NCBI GenBank assembly: GCA_937936275.1
Contig: CALHCJ010000112.1
Location: forward strand, 1-60,282
Origin: an uncultured Flavobacteriaceae bacterium
Lineage (GTDB): Bacteria > Bacteroidota > Bacteroidia > Flavobacteriales > Flavobacteriaceae
DNA: 60,282 bases
Direction: 5' to 3'
Below the pieces are notes generated by a model. It saw nothing but the letters and a program-made list of their open reading frames with translations, made no database searches and had not been told where the DNA came from. This document shows positions 3,013-55,028 of the stretch, one piece after another. The number at the start of each line of letters is the position of its first letter. Within the stretch, counting starts at the first letter, position 1. The position numbers were made by a program, and so were the translations under genes.

Positions 3013-6000
3013 CTATTGTACTACAGCAACCCACTGACCTTTTGTTCTAACCATATAGTCGTTATCATACATTGCTTCTGCTTGAATTCCTGGTAAATAA
3101 TACTTGCCTAAATAGGATGCGTTTAAGAGAATTCTAAAAGTTTTTGTTTCATTACGTTTCATACCGAAATAGAAATTTGCTCGATCATCTCTCAAATCAG
3201 TATGGGTGACTTGATTTTGAGCAAAGCTTCCGAAATCGGTAAAACGGGTGTTTACGATTTCCCAACCGCTCGGAAATAGTTCTGTCAAAGCCATATCTTT
3301 TAATCGATTCGAAGTTGTGTTTGTCAAGGTCACCTCTGCAACAAAATCTGTTCCTTGCGCGATGTTTGCCGGGTCTATTGTTGAACCATTTCTTCCTTTG
3401 AAAACCATTTGAGCAGAAAGATTTTTCTGAAAAGTTTTCTCTTCACCCACGGGCAGAATTCCACTATTCACAATGCTTACATAAACTGAGTTCCCTTCTT
3501 GATTTTTTAAAGTGATATTGTTACTTCCCTTTTTAATTTCTAATGAACGAATCGCCAAGGTTTTTTCAGAATTTATATTCTCAGATTTGCCATTTACTAC
3601 TAGGCTTGTTTTTATTCCTTTTCCATCAACCATATCAGCAAATTTTGCCATGGCTAACAAACTGTAAGAAGTACTTTGCGTACTCATGTATCGCTTATCA
3701 GAAAGGTTCTTAGCTATCTCTTTTGCTAAGTCTTGCGCTTTTATTTTATCCTTCATCAAAACATAAGTTTCCAATGCCATTGCCCTATTTCTGTCAGAGG
3801 AACCATAGGTATAGTAGTGATATTTATTATTCTCTACATCTAATCGCGCTCTACTTAAAATCTTTTTCGCTACCTCAGCTTGACCAATGATCGCGTAGGC
3901 AGCGGCTAAACGGAATTTTCCTTCATTCGAAACTCCAGTACTTTCACGCAGGCGGTTCATACTGGCCACATCAGCATTTCCAGAAAGGGCTAACGTATAT
4001 AAACGATAAGCCTGTGCTAAATCAGAATTGCTGCCTGCTCGCCATTGTTTCGCTACATCCTGCTGATATTTCACCCAGCTTGATTTGAATCCGATAGGCA
4101 GCACATAACCTCTTTTTTCCGCTTCTAATAGGAAATGACCAGCATAGGTCGTTCCCCAATCATTAACATAATTTTGACCTGGCCAATAGGAGAATCCGCC
4201 TCCAGGCTTTTGGAAGCTTCCCAACCGCTTAATTCCTCTTTCAATATGCTGTTGAATACGTTTTTTCTTATCCGATGGAATATCGAAAATATCACTCAAA
4301 AATAACTGTGGAAACGCCCCAGAAGTAGTCTGTTCAACACAACCGTGCGGATAGCGAATCAAATATTTCATTCTTCCATTGAAATTCATAGGAGGCAAAG
4401 TCGAAAATTCGATTTCCGCCGTGTTGGTTCCAGCTATTCCAAAGGTTTCTAAATTAATCGTCTGACTAGTATTCGGTTCAAGAACCACTTCTGTAATTTC
4501 AGAAGTCAACGGATTCGGATTGACCACATCAATTGGAATCTCAAAAGATGCTTTTTCTCCGCCACCAGAAGCTTCGACAACTACTTTTCCTATTCCCGAG
4601 AAATCCGAAACATTCAATTGAAAGTAGGCCATCTTCTCGTCGGGCTGCGAAAAGCTTAGTTTTTGTGTTTGTTCGCCCTCAATTGTAAATGCTTTGTCTT
4701 GCTTGATTTTCAAGGTCACGTTTTTCACCTTCTTTTCCATGGCAAAAACAGTTACCGGTAAGGTCACTTTTTCACCCGGTGTTATTTTTCTGGGTAACGA
4801 AGCCAAAATCATCAAAGGTTTACGAACGGGTGTGGTTTTCTCCGTTTGTCCGTATGCCTCTTTGGAATTATCGCCTGCAACAACCATAGTACGAACAGAT
4901 CCCACATATTTTGGAATCTTAATTTCATGTGACTTAGTTTCTCCGCCTTTCAAACTAAACGGACCTAAATGCACTACCATAGGTTCAAAACGATTTGCTT
5001 TTTTATTCTTTGCCCCAGCCAATTCACCATCACCACCGATAGCGAATACTTGATCAATTTTTCCGCCAAAAGCACCAATAACATCATCGTATACATCCCA
5101 AGTTTTTACTCCCAATGCTTCTTTCGCGTAGAACGTGTTCCAAGGGTTTGGAGTTTTGAATCTTGTTAAATCTAACAAGCCCTCATCGACAATTGCGATG
5201 CTATAGGTCATGGCTTTTTTGTTCTGCTCACTAACTTTTACCGTGATAGTTTCTTCTGGCCTTAAAACATCTGGCATCTTGATAACAGGTGCCAATTTTG
5301 TTTCTTTATTTTCAACGGATATTCCCGTAACCCCGTACATGCGAATGGGCGAATCATTTTTCGTAGTTGCATGTGGTTGTAATGAAGCAATATTGATAAA
5401 TACATTTGGCGTGTATAATTCTGAAATTGGCAGCTTAAATTTTGTCTCTCCTTCAACGGTCTCTACCCAAAGTGATTCTAACACTTCACTACCATTTTCA
5501 ACGGTCACCAAAGCACGTCCTCCAGAAGAACTTGGAAAGCTTACTGTAGCCGTTTCACCAACGTTATAGGTTTCCTTATCTGTAGAAAAATTTAACATTG
5601 TTGCTGCAGAAGGATCCCCTTTTCTAGACTTACCCGCCCAACCCGGCCAGTCGATATAAATTGTTTTTCCAGTGGCATGACCTCCGTTAGGGTCTTCTAC
5701 ACGTACTAAATATCTTCCCCAATCAGGATATTTTAATTCAAAATCAAAAGTTGCTTTTCCATTCGAACCTGTATTTATAGTTTTCTCAAAAAGCATTTCT
5801 CGATATTGACTGCTACTGTAAGACGATAGATTATCGGATGAAGTATCCCACCACCATCTCCAACTTACTTTATGGACAGTTACTTTTAAATTCTTGGCAG
5901 CTTTCGCGTTTCCTTTTTCATCTACAGAAACTACTTCAAATTTATGTTTGACATCAGTCAATAACATACCTCTGCGTTTATCTCCTTTCGGAGTGTTCAA

Positions 6001-51567: not shown

Positions 51568-53466
51568 ATGAGTGACGCTATCAAACACGAATGTGGTATA
51601 TCGGTAATACGATTGTTGAAACCATTGGAGTACTATAAAGATAAATACGGTACCGCCTTTTACGGAGTTAACAAAATGTATTTGATGATGGAAAAGCAGC
51701 ACAATCGCGGTCAAGACGGGGCTGGTTTTGCAAGTATTAAATTAGACATGAATGCTGGTGAACGATATATGAGTCGTGTTCGCTCAAATGAGCAGCAACC
51801 TATTCAAGATATTTTTGCACAAATTAATGATCGCATTAATAGTGAGATTGAGCAAAATCCTGAATATGCTGAGAATGTTGCTTTACAGAAAAAGTATATT
51901 CCGTACATCGGCGAGCTGTTGCTTGGTCATGTGCGTTATGGAACGTTTGGGAAAAATAGTATAGAAAGCGTACACCCCTTCTTGCGTCAAAACAATTGGA
52001 TGCACAGAAACCTCATCATGGCGGGTAATTTCAATATGACCAATGTTCATGAGCTTTTTGACAACTTAGTACAATTAGGTCAGCACCCTAAGGAAATGGC
52101 TGATACGGTCACAGTAATGGAGAAAATAGGCCATTTTCTAGATGATGCCGTTGCCAAATTATATAAGCAAATAAAAAAAGAAGGCTACAACAAACGAGAA
52201 GCTTCTGCTATTATAGCAGAACGGCTAAAAGTATCTAAGATATTACGAAGAGCGGCTAAAAATTTTGATGGTGGTTATGCAATGGCCGGACTTATTGGTC
52301 ACGGCGATGCGTTTGTTTTAAGAGACCCTGCTGGTATTCGACCCGCATATTATTATCAAGATGATGAAGTAGCAGTGGTGGCATCAGAGCGACCTGCAAT
52401 TCAAACAGTTTTTAATGTTTCGTACGATGATGTTCATGAACTAGATCCTGGTCATGCCTTTATTATAAAGAAAAATGGAACAACTGCGGTAAAGCAAGTT
52501 CTCGAACCTACCGAAAGAAAAGCCTGTTCTTTCGAGCGTATTTATTTTTCTCGGGGAAGCGATAAAGAAATCTATCAAGAGCGTAAAGAATTGGGGAAAC
52601 TTATTTTTCCTAAAATCTTAACCGCCATAAATCATGACATCAAGAAAACCGTATTCTCTTACATTCCGAATACTGCCGAAACTTCTTTTTTCGGCATGGT
52701 TAAAGAAGCACAGAACTATCTGAATAAGAAGAAAGAAGAACAGATTCTTTCTATCGGATCAAAAATTACGAGTGAAGAGCTTCATGAAATTTTAGAGGTT
52801 CGTCCTAGAATTGAAAAAGTAGCTATCAAGGATGCAAAGCTAAGAACATTCATCACTCAAGACAGTAGTCGAGATGATCTTGTAGCGCATGTTTATGATA
52901 TTTCCTATGGCTCTGTAGACAGAGGCGATAATTTAGTAATTATTGATGATAGTATCGTAAGGGGAACTACGCTAAAGAAAAGTATACTTCGTATTCTTGA
53001 TCGTCTATCTCCAAAAAAGATCATTGTTGTCTCTTCTGCACCCCAAATTCGCTATCCTGATTGTTATGGTATTGACATGGCTAAGCTTGAAGATTTTATT
53101 GCCTTTAAGGCTGCTCTAGCATTGCATGAAGATAAAGGCACCATGGACATTGTAGAAGGTATCTACAAAAAATGCCTTACCCAAATCAATCGTAAAGATG
53201 CTGATGTTATCAACTATGTAAAGGAGTTTTATGCTCCTTTTACAGCAGATGAAATTTCAAAGAAAAGTGGCGAGCTATTAAGTCCAAAAGACATTAAGGC
53301 GGAAGTCGAAATAATCTATCAAACTATTAGTAACCTTCATCTGGCATGTCCGAAAAATTTGGGGGACTGGTATTTCACTGGAAACTATCCAACTGCAGGA
53401 GGAAACAGAGTAGTCAATAGAGCTTTTATCAACTTCTATGAAGGTAAAAATGAACGGGCCTATTAA
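51568..53466 (+). CDS. purF: Amidophosphoribosyltransferase, long Bacteroidota form
   Basis: This 632-residue enzyme starts purine synthesis, making phosphoribosylamine from PRPP and glutamine. The glutaminase Cys9 in HECGISV would need removal of an eight-residue propeptide to be N-terminal. GHVRYGTFG and RGQDGAGFA belong to the same domain, and the PRPP loop is LVIIDDSIVRGTT (456-468). It is longer than the usual 470-510 residues. The FTGNYPT motif near the end lacks the neighbouring cysteines of the iron-sulfur forms. Some annotators call this group PurF-like. Confidence 0.93.
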   Translation: MSDAIKHECGISVIRLLKPLEYYKDKYGTAFYGVNKMYLMMEKQHNRGQDGAGFASIKLDMNAGERYMSRVRSNEQQPIQDIFAQINDRINSEIEQNPEYAENVALQKKYIPYIGELLLGHVRYGTFGKNSIESVHPFLRQNNWMHRNLIMAGNFNMTNVHELFDNLVQLGQHPKEMADTVTVMEKIGHFLDDAVAKLYKQIKKEGYNKREASAIIAERLKVSKILRRAAKNFDGGYAMAGLIGHGDAFVLRDPAGIRPAYYYQDDEVAVVASERPAIQTVFNVSYDDVHELDPGHAFIIKKNGTTAVKQVLEPTERKACSFERIYFSRGSDKEIYQERKELGKLIFPKILTAINHDIKKTVFSYIPNTAETSFFGMVKEAQNYLNKKKEEQILSIGSKITSEELHEILEVRPRIEKVAIKDAKLRTFITQDSSRDDLVAHVYDISYGSVDRGDNLVIIDDSIVRGTTLKKSILRILDRLSPKKIIVVSSAPQIRYPDCYGIDMAKLEDFIAFKAALALHEDKGTMDIVEGIYKKCLTQINRKDADVINYVKEFYAPFTADEISKKSGELLSPKDIKAEVEIIYQTISNLHLACPKNLGDWYFTGNYPTAGGNRVVNRAFINFYEGKNERAY

Positions 53467-53470
53467 TACG

Positions 53471-53512
53471 ATTATCGACGAAATGCACAAATTCTTGTAC
53501 TTCATCGATAAT
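53471..53512 (+). terminator. Long hairpin directly after purF
   Basis: ATTATCGA (53471-53478) pairs with TCGATAAT (53505-53512). Pairing continues inward (GAA/TTC, ACAA/TTGT) around an ATTC loop. It lacks a T tract, so it may be an RNA 3' stabiliser or processing site, not a classic terminator. Confidence 0.5.
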
Positions 53513-53557
53513 ATGTGCCATTCAGCGTGTTTTTAGCCGCTTTGAAAGCCTGCCGCT

Positions 53558-53565
53558 TACTTTAG
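53558..53565 (+). promoter_or_regulatory. -7-like octamer of sRNA copy 1
   Basis: TACTTTAG has one mismatch to TANNTTTG and ends five bases before the repeated head. A T run at 53530-53534 is 23 bases upstream of it. Confidence 0.5.
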
Positions 53566-53569
53566 ACTT

Positions 53570-53647
53570 GCCATAGCATAAGTAGGTTAAGTTCATGGTA
53601 AGATTTGGGGCAAAAAAGGTGGAGACTTCTCCACCTTTTTTATTTTC
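53570..53647 (+). ncRNA. Tandem small RNA copy 1
   Basis: The 40-base head (53571-53610) begins CCATAGCATAAG and ends GATTTGGGG. CCAT at its start can pair with ATGG at 53595-53598. Directly behind is a terminator, GGTGGAG (53618-53624), ACTT, CTCCACC (53629-53635), flanked by A and T runs. Predicted length is about 75 nt. There is no open frame with a stop before the terminator. The head is identical to copies 2 and 3. Confidence 0.8.
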
Positions 53648-53715
53648 TGGTCTTTCACTTTTTCATTTTCCCAAACTACACTTCAACCGAATAATAGACG
53701 CTTCAACAAAGAATT

Positions 53716-53746
53716 TTTAACTCTCATCAGCCTTCATTTATCTTTG
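53716..53746 (+). promoter_or_regulatory. Promoter of sRNA copy 2
   Basis: TTTA (53716-53719), 19 bases, then a perfect TANNTTTG element TATCTTTG (53739-53746). It ends five bases before the head. Confidence 0.7.
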
Positions 53747-53750
53747 GAGA

Positions 53751-53825
53751 ACCATAGCATAAGTAGGTTAAGTTCATGGTAAGATTTGGGGAAAAGGCGG
53801 GGCAATGCTCCGCCTTTTTATTTTA
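53751..53825 (+). ncRNA. Tandem small RNA copy 2
   Basis: The head at 53752-53791 is identical to copy 1. The terminator differs: GGCGGGGC (53796-53803), AAT, GCTCCGCC (53807-53814), followed by TTTTT. All eight pairs hold (one G-U), although the bases differ from copies 1, 3 and 4, which supports RNA pairing. A preceding A allows ACCAT/ATGGT pairing in the head. Confidence 0.8.
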
Positions 53826-54025
53826 CTTTTGATCCAGACTTCGACCCTACCTCATGATTATTTTAACTTGTGTATTACATTATATGTACCTTTAATTACA
53901 CTGTTTTCAATACTTGAAACCTCAGTAAAATCTCAATTTTAAGTACTGCTTTTTGAGGTAATCACCCAAGTTATTTACATATAGAAAGCCTTTCAACCAG
54001 ATAAAAAGGCATTCATCCAAAACCT

Positions 54026-54056
54026 TTTTTTAAAGACTATCAATACGATACTTTTA
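54026..54056 (+). promoter_or_regulatory. Promoter of sRNA copy 3
   Basis: TTTT (54026-54029), 19 bases, then TACTTTTA (54049-54056), one mismatch to TANNTTTG, ending five bases before the head. Confidence 0.6.
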
Positions 54057-54060
54057 GAGA

Positions 54061-54136
54061 ACCATAGCATAAGTAGGTTAAGTTCATGGTAAGATTTGGG
54101 GCAAAAAAGGTGGAGACTTCTCCACCTTTTTTATTT
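54061..54136 (+). ncRNA. Tandem small RNA copy 3
   Basis: The head at 54062-54101 is identical to copies 1 and 2. Its terminator is the same as in copy 1 (GGTGGAG, ACTT, CTCCACC, T run to about 54136). The five bases before the head (GAGAA) match copy 2 and differ from copies 1 and 4. The 238 bases between copies 2 and 3 contain a nested inverted repeat around 53919-53959 (ACCTCA/TGAGGT) but no gene. Confidence 0.8.
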
Positions 54137-54230
54137 GAAAACCTTAGTATTTTCCACAGCTCACCCATTTTTTAAGTAAAATCTTACTTTTTTCAAAAAA
54201 AGTCAAGCTCTTAAAAAATACCAAAATTCC

Positions 54231-54261
54231 TTTTTTATTTAACACAATACCAGTAATTTAG
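54231..54261 (+). promoter_or_regulatory. Promoter of sRNA copy 4 inside an inverted repeat
   Basis: TTTT (54231-54234), 19 bases, then TAATTTAG (54254-54261), one mismatch to TANNTTTG. CAATAC (54245-54250) and GTATTG (54261-54266) form a perfect inverted repeat around the octamer, a possible operator. Confidence 0.6.
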
Positions 54262-54265
54262 TATT

Positions 54266-54345
54266 GCCATAGCATAAGTAGGTTAAGTTTATGGTAAGAT
54301 TTGGGACGAAAAGGGTGGAGACTTCTCCGCCCTTTTCTATTTTTA
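54266..54345 (+). ncRNA. Tandem small RNA copy 4
   Basis: The head at 54267-54306 differs from the other three at two places: C to T at head position 24, next to the ATGG, and G to A at position 40. The terminator is GGGTGGAG (54313-54320), ACTT, CTCCGCCC (54325-54332), pairing with one G-U, followed by T residues. It is the copy nearest to sod. Confidence 0.78.
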
Positions 54346-54354
54346 AACTAGACA

Positions 54355-54390
54355 AAAAAGCATCCTATCAAAATTGATAGGATGCTTTTT
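54355..54390. terminator. Strong bidirectional terminator between sRNA array and sod
   Basis: AAAAAGCATCCTATCAA (54355-54371) pairs perfectly with TTGATAGGATGCTTTTT (54374-54390). It can end sod on the minus strand and any read-through from sRNA copy 4. Confidence 0.9.
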
Positions 54391-54419: not shown

Positions 54420-55028
54420 CTATTTATGAGATGCGTACAACTCAGACACTTTGTCCCAGTTAATCACATTGAAAAAGGCACTAACATAATCTGGTCTTCT
54501 GTTTTGATAATTTAGGTAGTAAGCATGTTCCCAAACATCAAGACCCAAAATAGGATAACCGCCACAACCAACATTTGGCATTAGTGGATTATCTTGATTT
54601 GGTGTCGAGCAAACTTCAACCTTACCTCCTGGGTGCACGCAAAGCCAAGCCCATCCTGACCCGAATCTTGTTCCTGCGGCTGCACTAAATTTCTCTTTAA
54701 AAGAATCAAATGACCCGAAAGCGGTGTTGATTGCATCAGCTAATTCGCCTGAAGGCGCTCCACCTCCGTCAGGAGACATTACACTCCAGAAAAGCGAATG
54801 ATTAAAAAACCCACCTCCATTATTTCTAACGGCTCCGTTAGACATATCGAGATTTGATAAAATATCTTCAATTGATTTTTCTGCTAAATCGCTTCCTTCG
54901 ATAGCCGTATTTAATTTAGTAGTATATCCATTGTGATGTTTAGTGTGGTGTATCTCCATCGTTCTGGCATCAATATGTGGTTCCAATGCGTCATAGGCAT
55001 AGGGTAATTTTGGTAATTCAAAAGCCAT
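54420..55028 (-). CDS. sod: Iron/manganese superoxide dismutase
   Basis: This 202-residue enzyme converts superoxide to peroxide and oxygen. Metal ligands are visible as His27 in [12 protein letters not shown], a His in [11 protein letters not shown], and the Asp and His in [28 protein letters not shown] is typical. The iron or manganese preference cannot be told safely. No signal peptide. A -7-like TAAATTTG lies on the minus strand at 55069-55062. The gene is convergent with the small-RNA array. Confidence 0.95.

Follow-up and report, generated by a model that had tools for sequence, protein, structure and literature searches.

What do the four near-identical 40-nt sequences encode that lie between a purF-like gene and a superoxide dismutase gene in the genome of an uncultured Flavobacteriaceae bacterium (assembly GCA_937936275.1, contig CALHCJ010000112.1, positions 1 to 60,282; this whole stretch of 60,282 bases is called the window below)? 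An initial annotation had read them as four tandem small RNA (sRNA) genes with a common 5' region, each with its own promoter and terminator. The observation was confirmed, and it is larger than described: it extends to direct repeats around −70 and −50, to a differing upstream region of copy 4, to a family-wide distribution and to a second, complementary RNA. Our reading, to which we give a probability of about 60%, is that the four units are the genes of a multicopy trans-acting sRNA of ~70-75 nt that would pair with mRNAs, copies 1 to 3 being driven by a response regulator and copy 4 otherwise, and that the second RNA would be its antagonist.

The four units lie on the forward strand, and their conserved 40-nt heads start at 53571, 53752, 54062 and 54267. 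On recheck these positions were exact, as were the identity of heads 1-3 and the two changes of head 4 (TTC to TTT and GGGG to GGGA); the six pairwise comparisons over 40 nt gave 40, 40, 38, 40, 38 and 38 identities. All the 30-mers repeated in the window fall within the units (113 start positions, 53571-54107), and the repetition is therefore not due to chance. As had been claimed, the units alone are conserved: the upstream stretches (−60 to −15) share only 12-20 of 46 positions, and the spacers between the 75-nt units (about 106, 235 and 130 bases) are mutually unrelated. The intrinsic terminator noted right behind each head was recovered by the terminator scan for three of the four units, that of unit 3 appearing as an inverted repeat followed by T. 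A sigma-70 scan gave no site at the expected place before the heads; TAnnTTTG-like boxes of the Bacteroidota type are nevertheless present at −13 to −6 of every head in the window, which agrees with the proposal of one promoter per unit. The features of the units, with the basis of each assignment, are the following.

53501..53527, + strand: direct repeat of unit 1 with a LytTR-like layout, TTCATCGATAA at −70 and TTCAGCG at −50 (comparison with relatives; layout set against the available text of PMC4847170)
53558..53565, + strand: −7 promoter box of unit 1, TACTTTAG (position profile over relatives)
53570, + strand: predicted likely transcription start of unit 1 (position profile over relatives)
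53571..53610, + strand: head of unit 1, 40 nt (repeat and head comparison)
53612..53641, + strand: intrinsic terminator of unit 1 (inverted repeat and terminator scan)
53682..53711, + strand: direct repeat of unit 2, TTCAACC at −70 and TTCAACAAAG at −50 (comparison with relatives)
53739..53746, + strand: −7 promoter box of unit 2, TATCTTTG (position profile over relatives)
53752..53791, + strand: head of unit 2 (repeat and head comparison)
53791..53819, + strand: intrinsic terminator of unit 2 (terminator scan)
53992..54022, + strand: direct repeat of unit 3, TTCAACC at −70 and TTCATCCAAAA at −50 (comparison with relatives)
54049..54056, + strand: −7 promoter box of unit 3, TACTTTTA (position profile over relatives)
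54062..54101, + strand: head of unit 3 (repeat and head comparison)
54103..54132, + strand: intrinsic terminator of unit 3 (inverted repeat, then T; absent from the terminator-scan list)
54229..54261, + strand: upstream region of unit 4, CCTTTTTTATTT...CAATACCAGTAATTTAG, without direct repeat (resembles the last units of relatives, unlike units 1-3)
54254-54261, + strand: −7 box of unit 4, TAATTTAG (sequence and the relatives' profile)
54267..54306, + strand: head of unit 4, TTT and GGGA variant (repeat and head comparison)
54308..54337, + strand: intrinsic terminator of unit 4 (terminator scan)

The same architecture was found in relatives. In a promoter profile of 309 de-duplicated units from relatives and the window, a TAnnTTTG-like box started exactly at −13 in 238 and a T-run followed the unit in 260. 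A purine directly precedes the head in 304 of 305 cases, and the exception, L008, is not a unit: this one of the 334 head matches considered below is the reverse strand of the second RNA. That promoter box, T-run, purine and location are all kept in relatives suggests that the four units are best read as first proposed, as sRNA genes in tandem that share their 5' region. It also makes it barely credible that the repeats are a DNA element (a repetitive extragenic palindromic (REP)-like repeat, an attachment site or a protein-binding site) or short peptide genes, since the strand-specific box and terminator stand at fixed distances and the location is mostly one and the same syntenic spot. For a DNA element speaks a related sequence that a mobile element of the genus, described below, carries at its ends, and for peptide genes the head ATG, which opens MVRFG in most units.

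The variation of the head bears directly on the peptide. The 334 head matches comprised 163 canonical heads, 58 of the copy-4 type, 48 and 27 with CCATAACAT and a one-base tail deletion, and 38 others, in a count that left out seven overlapping loci; 313 of them are distinct when flanks are included, and 94 carry the tail deletion. This deletion shifts the frame from MVRFG to MVDLG, and the stops fall anywhere from codon 8 to beyond the stretch read. A conserved peptide was thus rejected, because a one-base deletion found in many genera shifts the frame and the stops scatter. A conserved RNA fold was dropped as well: RNAalifold gave −0.5 kcal/mol and no covariation for the head alignment, whose terminators are not in register. 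A near-invariant head without stable consensus structure is what would be expected of a conserved single-stranded seed, and the presence of several copies, each with predicted promoter and terminator, is likewise consistent with a multicopy trans-acting base-pairing sRNA.

We then looked at the distribution of the units. The window's own genome, an incomplete assembly (85%), holds outside the array one further complete unit, solitary, on contig C80, and a degenerate match on contig C254; the latter, on the opposite strand, is the second RNA gene. This fifth complete unit (L005 1501-1570; G000 contig C80:12297) lies behind a transporter gene, presumably DASS/SLC13-like, and terminators starting like its own (GAAAAGACAGGGG) occur on units in L172 and L173. 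With unit 1 as query, BLAST returned matches in 47 of 59 family genomes (14 of the window's genus), while outside the family 2 of 39 genomes gave weak matches (E above 1e-4). A covariance model built from 28 diverse units, out of 50 picked, matched 34 of 395 phylum genomes; 33 of these belong to the window's family, the single non-family match was borderline (E 9e-4), and eight more family genomes had no match. Viral contigs yielded no head match.

A pattern scan of a named genome collection added at least 118 stretches from Maribacter, Zobellia, Arenibacter, Winogradskyella, Aquimarina, Flavobacterium and others, genera from which the family was taken to be Flavobacteriaceae. These loci contain the 24-base pattern of the scan by construction, so that their core identity is selected, a bias that weighs less on the BLAST and model searches; L291, for instance, has a Flavobacterium-like variant, ATTAG in place of ATAAG, that the scan would miss. 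Both purF and sod adjoin the units in 81 of the 118 loci listed, purF only in 21, sod only in 12 and neither in 4; one or both genes are thus present in 114, and two of the four remaining loci (L051 and L104) lie 170 bases or less from the end of the stretch. Complete arrays contained one unit (30 cases), two (18), three (18), four (9), five (5) or six (1), when the head pattern allowed up to 8 differences. Altogether, one to six near-identical predicted sRNA units are found at one usual purF-sod spot across Flavobacteriaceae, marine and freshwater. A third, diverged unit (TCATGACATAAG...TTTAGATTTGGG) was noticed in L088 around position 3122 on the reverse strand, with its own terminator and without the usual promoter box. 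In the window, the surroundings of the array are the following.

51568..53466, + strand: purF-like amidotransferase gene, conserved left neighbour (glutamine amidotransferase domains; synteny)
54420..55028, − strand: Fe/Mn superoxide dismutase gene (sod), conserved convergent right neighbour (Pfam; synteny)
54355-54390, − strand: terminator-like hairpin on the sod strand (terminator scan)

The domain search shows glutamine amidotransferase domains for the left neighbour; the name purF is our own. A role in oxidative or purine stress had been considered earlier on the basis of the neighbours sod and purF only, and nothing in the present analysis supports it. As local targets the two genes were rejected (duplex energies of −11.1 for sod and −18.3 for purF, neither at the top among 57 window frames), as was the 5210 frame, high in the duplex ranking, which is antisense to a frame of 1841 amino acids.

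Looking further upstream of the promoter boxes, we found the motif TT(C/T/A)(A/G)NC twice, once within 2 bases of −70 and once within 2 bases of −50, in 202 of 305 units; 200 single-base shuffles gave on average 0.69 such units and never more than 5. The motif was defined on the same data as it was counted on, and the shuffles ignore relatedness, which inflates the count. The repeat also occurs in distant genera such as Flavobacterium, where it is visible by eye in L291. LytTR sites usually consist of two repeats of 9-11 nt, 11-13 nt apart, with no common consensus, according to the available text of PMC4847170. The −70/−50 layout fits a LytTR target promoter, its 20-bp period being at the low end of the LytTR range. 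In contrast, the last unit of window-type arrays has a different conserved upstream region, without this repeat. Copies 1-3 are therefore probably controlled by a response regulator, of LytTR type, and copy 4 by something else. An imperfect inverted repeat, TTATCGACGAA ... TTCATCGATAA, lies at 53472-53511 of the window between purF and unit 1; its right half is the −70 repeat.

The second RNA gene was uncovered by searching relatives for the reverse complement of the head tail. It mostly starts with the complement of the conserved tail (CCCAAATCTTACC) and reads CCCAAATCTTACC-AAG-CTTAACCTACTT-AATGCTA, followed by a terminator. It has a −7-like box (CATCTTTG/A), and its alignment consists of a well conserved block upstream (CATACAAAAA, CTT-ACAACT, a T run and a CATCTTT-like −7 box) and then the complementary body. 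In columns 1-45 of the promoter alignment (A2), a near-invariant GCATACAAAAA-N6-CTTGACAACT stands ~40-70 nt before the presumed start, in which no known regulator site was recognised. In the window's genome the gene is convergent with yidC, apparently with one terminator for both; yidC was found in 32 of 42 second-RNA loci tested (three-kilobase loci, some genomes twice), convergent by eye. The gene is present in the window's own genome and in 11 of 13 congeners. The remaining two, G008 and G012, have assemblies of more than 300 contigs, and so do two of the congeners that carry the gene.

A sequence-only model of the second RNA, built from 16 of 17 sequences (L240 was left out and L238 trimmed), found it at E ≤ 2e-9 in 65 of 397 family genomes, which represent 39 genera (counts made by eye); 8 or more of these 65 genomes had contributed sequences to the model itself. 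The carriers include Zobellia uliginosa (G014; 100% to L050). Weaker matches (E ~1e-4, ending near model position 106) resemble the reverse strand of the units and were not counted. An earlier strict pattern had found 3 sites in 299 genomes, one of them a chance site in a FecR-like gene, and was superseded by the model search; a match in G077 was also due to chance, and the partial matches L363-L367 proved unfounded. The partner, too, can occur in several copies: contig C9:58755-59479 of G180 (L317, L329) carries four tandem copies.

How well do the two RNAs match? The second RNA of the window's genome is predicted to pair with nearly the whole head in a duplex of −49.7 kcal/mol, compared with −15.2±3.2 kcal/mol (lowest −33.6) for 2000 dinucleotide shuffles. 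With G-U allowed, the tail was paired at all 13 positions in 52 of 71 placed loci, at 12 in 12 loci, at 11 in 5 and at 10 in 2; not one of 7100 single-base shuffles, which likewise ignore relatedness, reached this strength. These 71 of 77 second-RNA loci, which include some genomes twice, were placed by requiring CC[AG]AA at the 5' end, so that the count is partly selected. Among the unplaced loci, L237, L354 and L357 keep most of the tail complement. Over the loop segment, pairing is complete in G262 and in a large part of the window's genus. A separately encoded RNA complementary to the presumed sRNA seed, with its own promoter-like box and terminator, has the features expected of a sponge RNA.

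We also compared the tail deletion with the presence of the partner. It was not seen in 20 second-RNA carriers whose arrays were fetched, at spots chosen via matches that favour the undeleted tail. Six relatives carry it (L031, L032, L034, L036, L037 and L038), and three of their genomes (G020, G026 and G037) gave no second RNA in the model search; lineage alone could explain this relation.

The complementarity would also allow the roles to be reversed, the yidC-adjacent RNA being the regulator and the purF-sod array its multicopy sponge. The 5' end of the yidC-adjacent RNA (TCCCAAATCTTACCAAAC) is indeed the best conserved part of the presumed transcript, as for a seed, and the array is multicopy, like a decoy. 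We nevertheless hold this arrangement to be very unlikely: the array is the commoner of the two (47 of 59 family genomes, many of them congeners, against 65 of 397), and its head is preserved also where no partner was detected, so that it seems to have a function of its own.

The reading that we prefer, with the array as regulator, can thus be set out as follows. Each unit would have a 39-nt head, near-invariant and mostly single-stranded, followed by a terminator free to vary. The head would base-pair with mRNAs via two parts, its tail (GGTAAGATTTGGG) and the AAGTAGGTTAAG segment, which is conserved. Copies 1-3 would be switched on by a response regulator bound at −70/−50, probably one of the LytTR type, copy 4 being under different control. 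The second RNA would act as an antagonist (sponge) binding the same surfaces and so set a threshold for sRNA action. Pairing and antagonism would proceed without Hfq or RRM chaperones, as proposed because Hfq was undetected and an RRM protein was found in one family genome only. Indeed, the Hfq model had no match in 59 genomes, 36 of them of the family, and detected Hfq in 5 of 14 controls, including E. coli and B. subtilis; RRM_1 gave one match in the 36 family genomes, inside a frame of 616 amino acids, and none in the window's genome. Any pairing in vivo would thus take place in the absence of Hfq and, in nearly all cases, of an RRM protein, in a search that did not extend to CsrA or further RNA-binding proteins.

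Several points weigh against this reading, beginning with the two qualifications already attached to the −70/−50 and tail-pairing counts. Both RNAs are known from sequence alone. Three unplaced second-RNA loci, L328, L343 and L244 (window's genus), are largely without the tail complement, and outside the window's genus the loop-segment pairing is mostly partial. Many genera with units have no second RNA in the model search, and the sRNA must therefore be able to function without it. No mRNA target was found for the head: exact complements of the 14-nt loop segment occurred only in units, the second RNA and two stray sites (G023 and G061), and the contexts read for exact complements of the 13-nt tail were units, the second RNA, mobile-element ends and coding sequence. 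When one mismatch was allowed in 14 genomes, 40 tail sites among the matches listed were read; most of these were inside or opposite long frames, and the sole recurring candidate among them, a weak one, was L414/L417 in two species. There, CCCAAATTTTACC at about position 725 is complementary to the tail of the sRNA, one of the pairs being G-U. It precedes by 71 nt the genes of large proteins that look secreted and are 44% identical over 171 amino acids.

Finally, near-invariance of 39 nt across the family exceeds what a pairing seed usually needs. This would be accounted for if the head were mainly a protein-binding RNA, a decoy or scaffold like CsrB or RsmZ for CsrA, whose copies raise the dose and from which the complementary RNA displaces the protein; multicopy decoys under two-component control are known (PMC4132741, available text). 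We regard this as unlikely: the head has no stable consensus fold and no covariation, in an alignment with terminators out of register, and it tolerates a one-base tail deletion in many genera. We saw in it no GGA hairpin of the type recognised by CsrA. Nor is a partner apparent, given the results for Hfq (0 of 59 genomes) and RRM proteins (1 of 36 family genomes) in a search that did not include CsrA and other RNA-binding proteins.

The tail sequence was also met outside the two RNA genes. A mobile stretch of 2.1 kb with mobilisation-type genes (G000 contig C76:5652-7691, L218 and L281; also L277, L278 and L279) has as its ends inverted copies of a hairpin followed by GGTAAGATTTGGG, and several of them resemble the head over a longer stretch, as does GTTAAGTTATGGTAAGATTTGGG in L278. 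In L218 and L279 an integrase-like gene adjoins the element, and single ends were seen in G007 and G001, a few hundred bases from contig ends.

A broader proposal, which we hold tentatively and at somewhat less than even odds, is that of a Flavobacteriaceae-specific two-RNA switch. An antisense sRNA that is conserved, encoded separately and under a control region of its own would restrain an array of identical sRNAs driven by a response regulator, so that dose sets a threshold without Hfq or RbpB. Mobile elements of the genus with tail copies at both ends may make use of the switch or be subject to silencing by it. Post-transcriptional control is little explored in Flavobacteriaceae, which include major degraders of algal polysaccharides and fish-associated bacteria; the candidate sRNA occurs family-wide at a fixed locus, its start can be predicted, the class of its activator is probable, and it comes with a partner RNA. 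If true, sRNA-sRNA antagonism would be kept over 39 sampled genera without Hfq, and chaperone-free pairing in Bacteroidota would become testable.

How does this system compare with known ones? The initial annotation had been unable to place the units in a known family, had suggested Flavo-1 as the first comparison and had held that a clear Rfam match would speak against its reading. The comparison was run: with Rfam 15, Flavo-1 included, no match reached the gathering cut-off in the window and six related loci, and Flavo-1 was missing from the 64 permissive matches. The best of these, STnc40 and sraA, look terminator-driven and score on the reverse strand too. The FopS model (RF04319) gave 19.8 bits on the units with a cut-off of 56 (E 2.6), and the units are therefore not FopS members. 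A thin literature check, with supplementary tables outside it, found among the papers listed no published description of a multicopy array with fixed locus, promoter repeats and a complementary RNA, and the metatranscriptome paper PMC5069720 describes no flavobacterial noncoding RNA in its available part.

Within the family, Rfp18 of Flavobacterium psychrophilum is a conserved sRNA with predicted mRNA pairing; it differs from our units by at least 3 stem-loops and by conservation in its genus (PMC9723704, available text). One of the 85 new F. psychrophilum RNAs in that source may be a copy of the array sRNA under an Rfp name. Single transcripts of the sRNA family may thus have been seen already in one species.

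By analogy, the array would work most like LhrC and FopS. The LhrC genes are arranged in tandem as well. In Listeria, the five sRNA homologues LhrC1-5 depend on the LisRK two-component system and act by base pairing, apparently additively, Hfq being unneeded for their stability or for pairing with lapB mRNA (PMC4132741, available text). They differ in carrying three redundant CU-rich motifs, whereas the units have one long near-invariant head, and in that the same text mentions no dedicated antisense partner, whereas here there is a second RNA. FopS of Bacteroides thetaiotaomicron, from the same phylum, shares with the units the multicopy state, a similar size, a shared 5' region, a Bacteroidota promoter and terminators, and is reported to repress translation via pairing near the start codon (PMC11697453, available text). 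Its loci are given there as intergenic (9), antisense (4) or in a 3' untranslated region (1), with no mention of a tandem arrangement such as that of the window units. According to the same text, the RRM protein RbpB binds FopS and counteracts it; here the antagonist would be an RNA.

Sponge RNAs such as SroC and RbsZ of enterobacteria pair with the seed of regulatory sRNAs; examples of this kind are Hfq-associated, and several are processed from mRNAs. Unlike SroC and RbsZ, the second RNA has a promoter-like region of its own, a terminator and a conserved neighbourhood. Altogether, the system, a multicopy sRNA whose antisense partner is conserved and has a gene of its own, looks like a so far undescribed regulator with a built-in antagonist.
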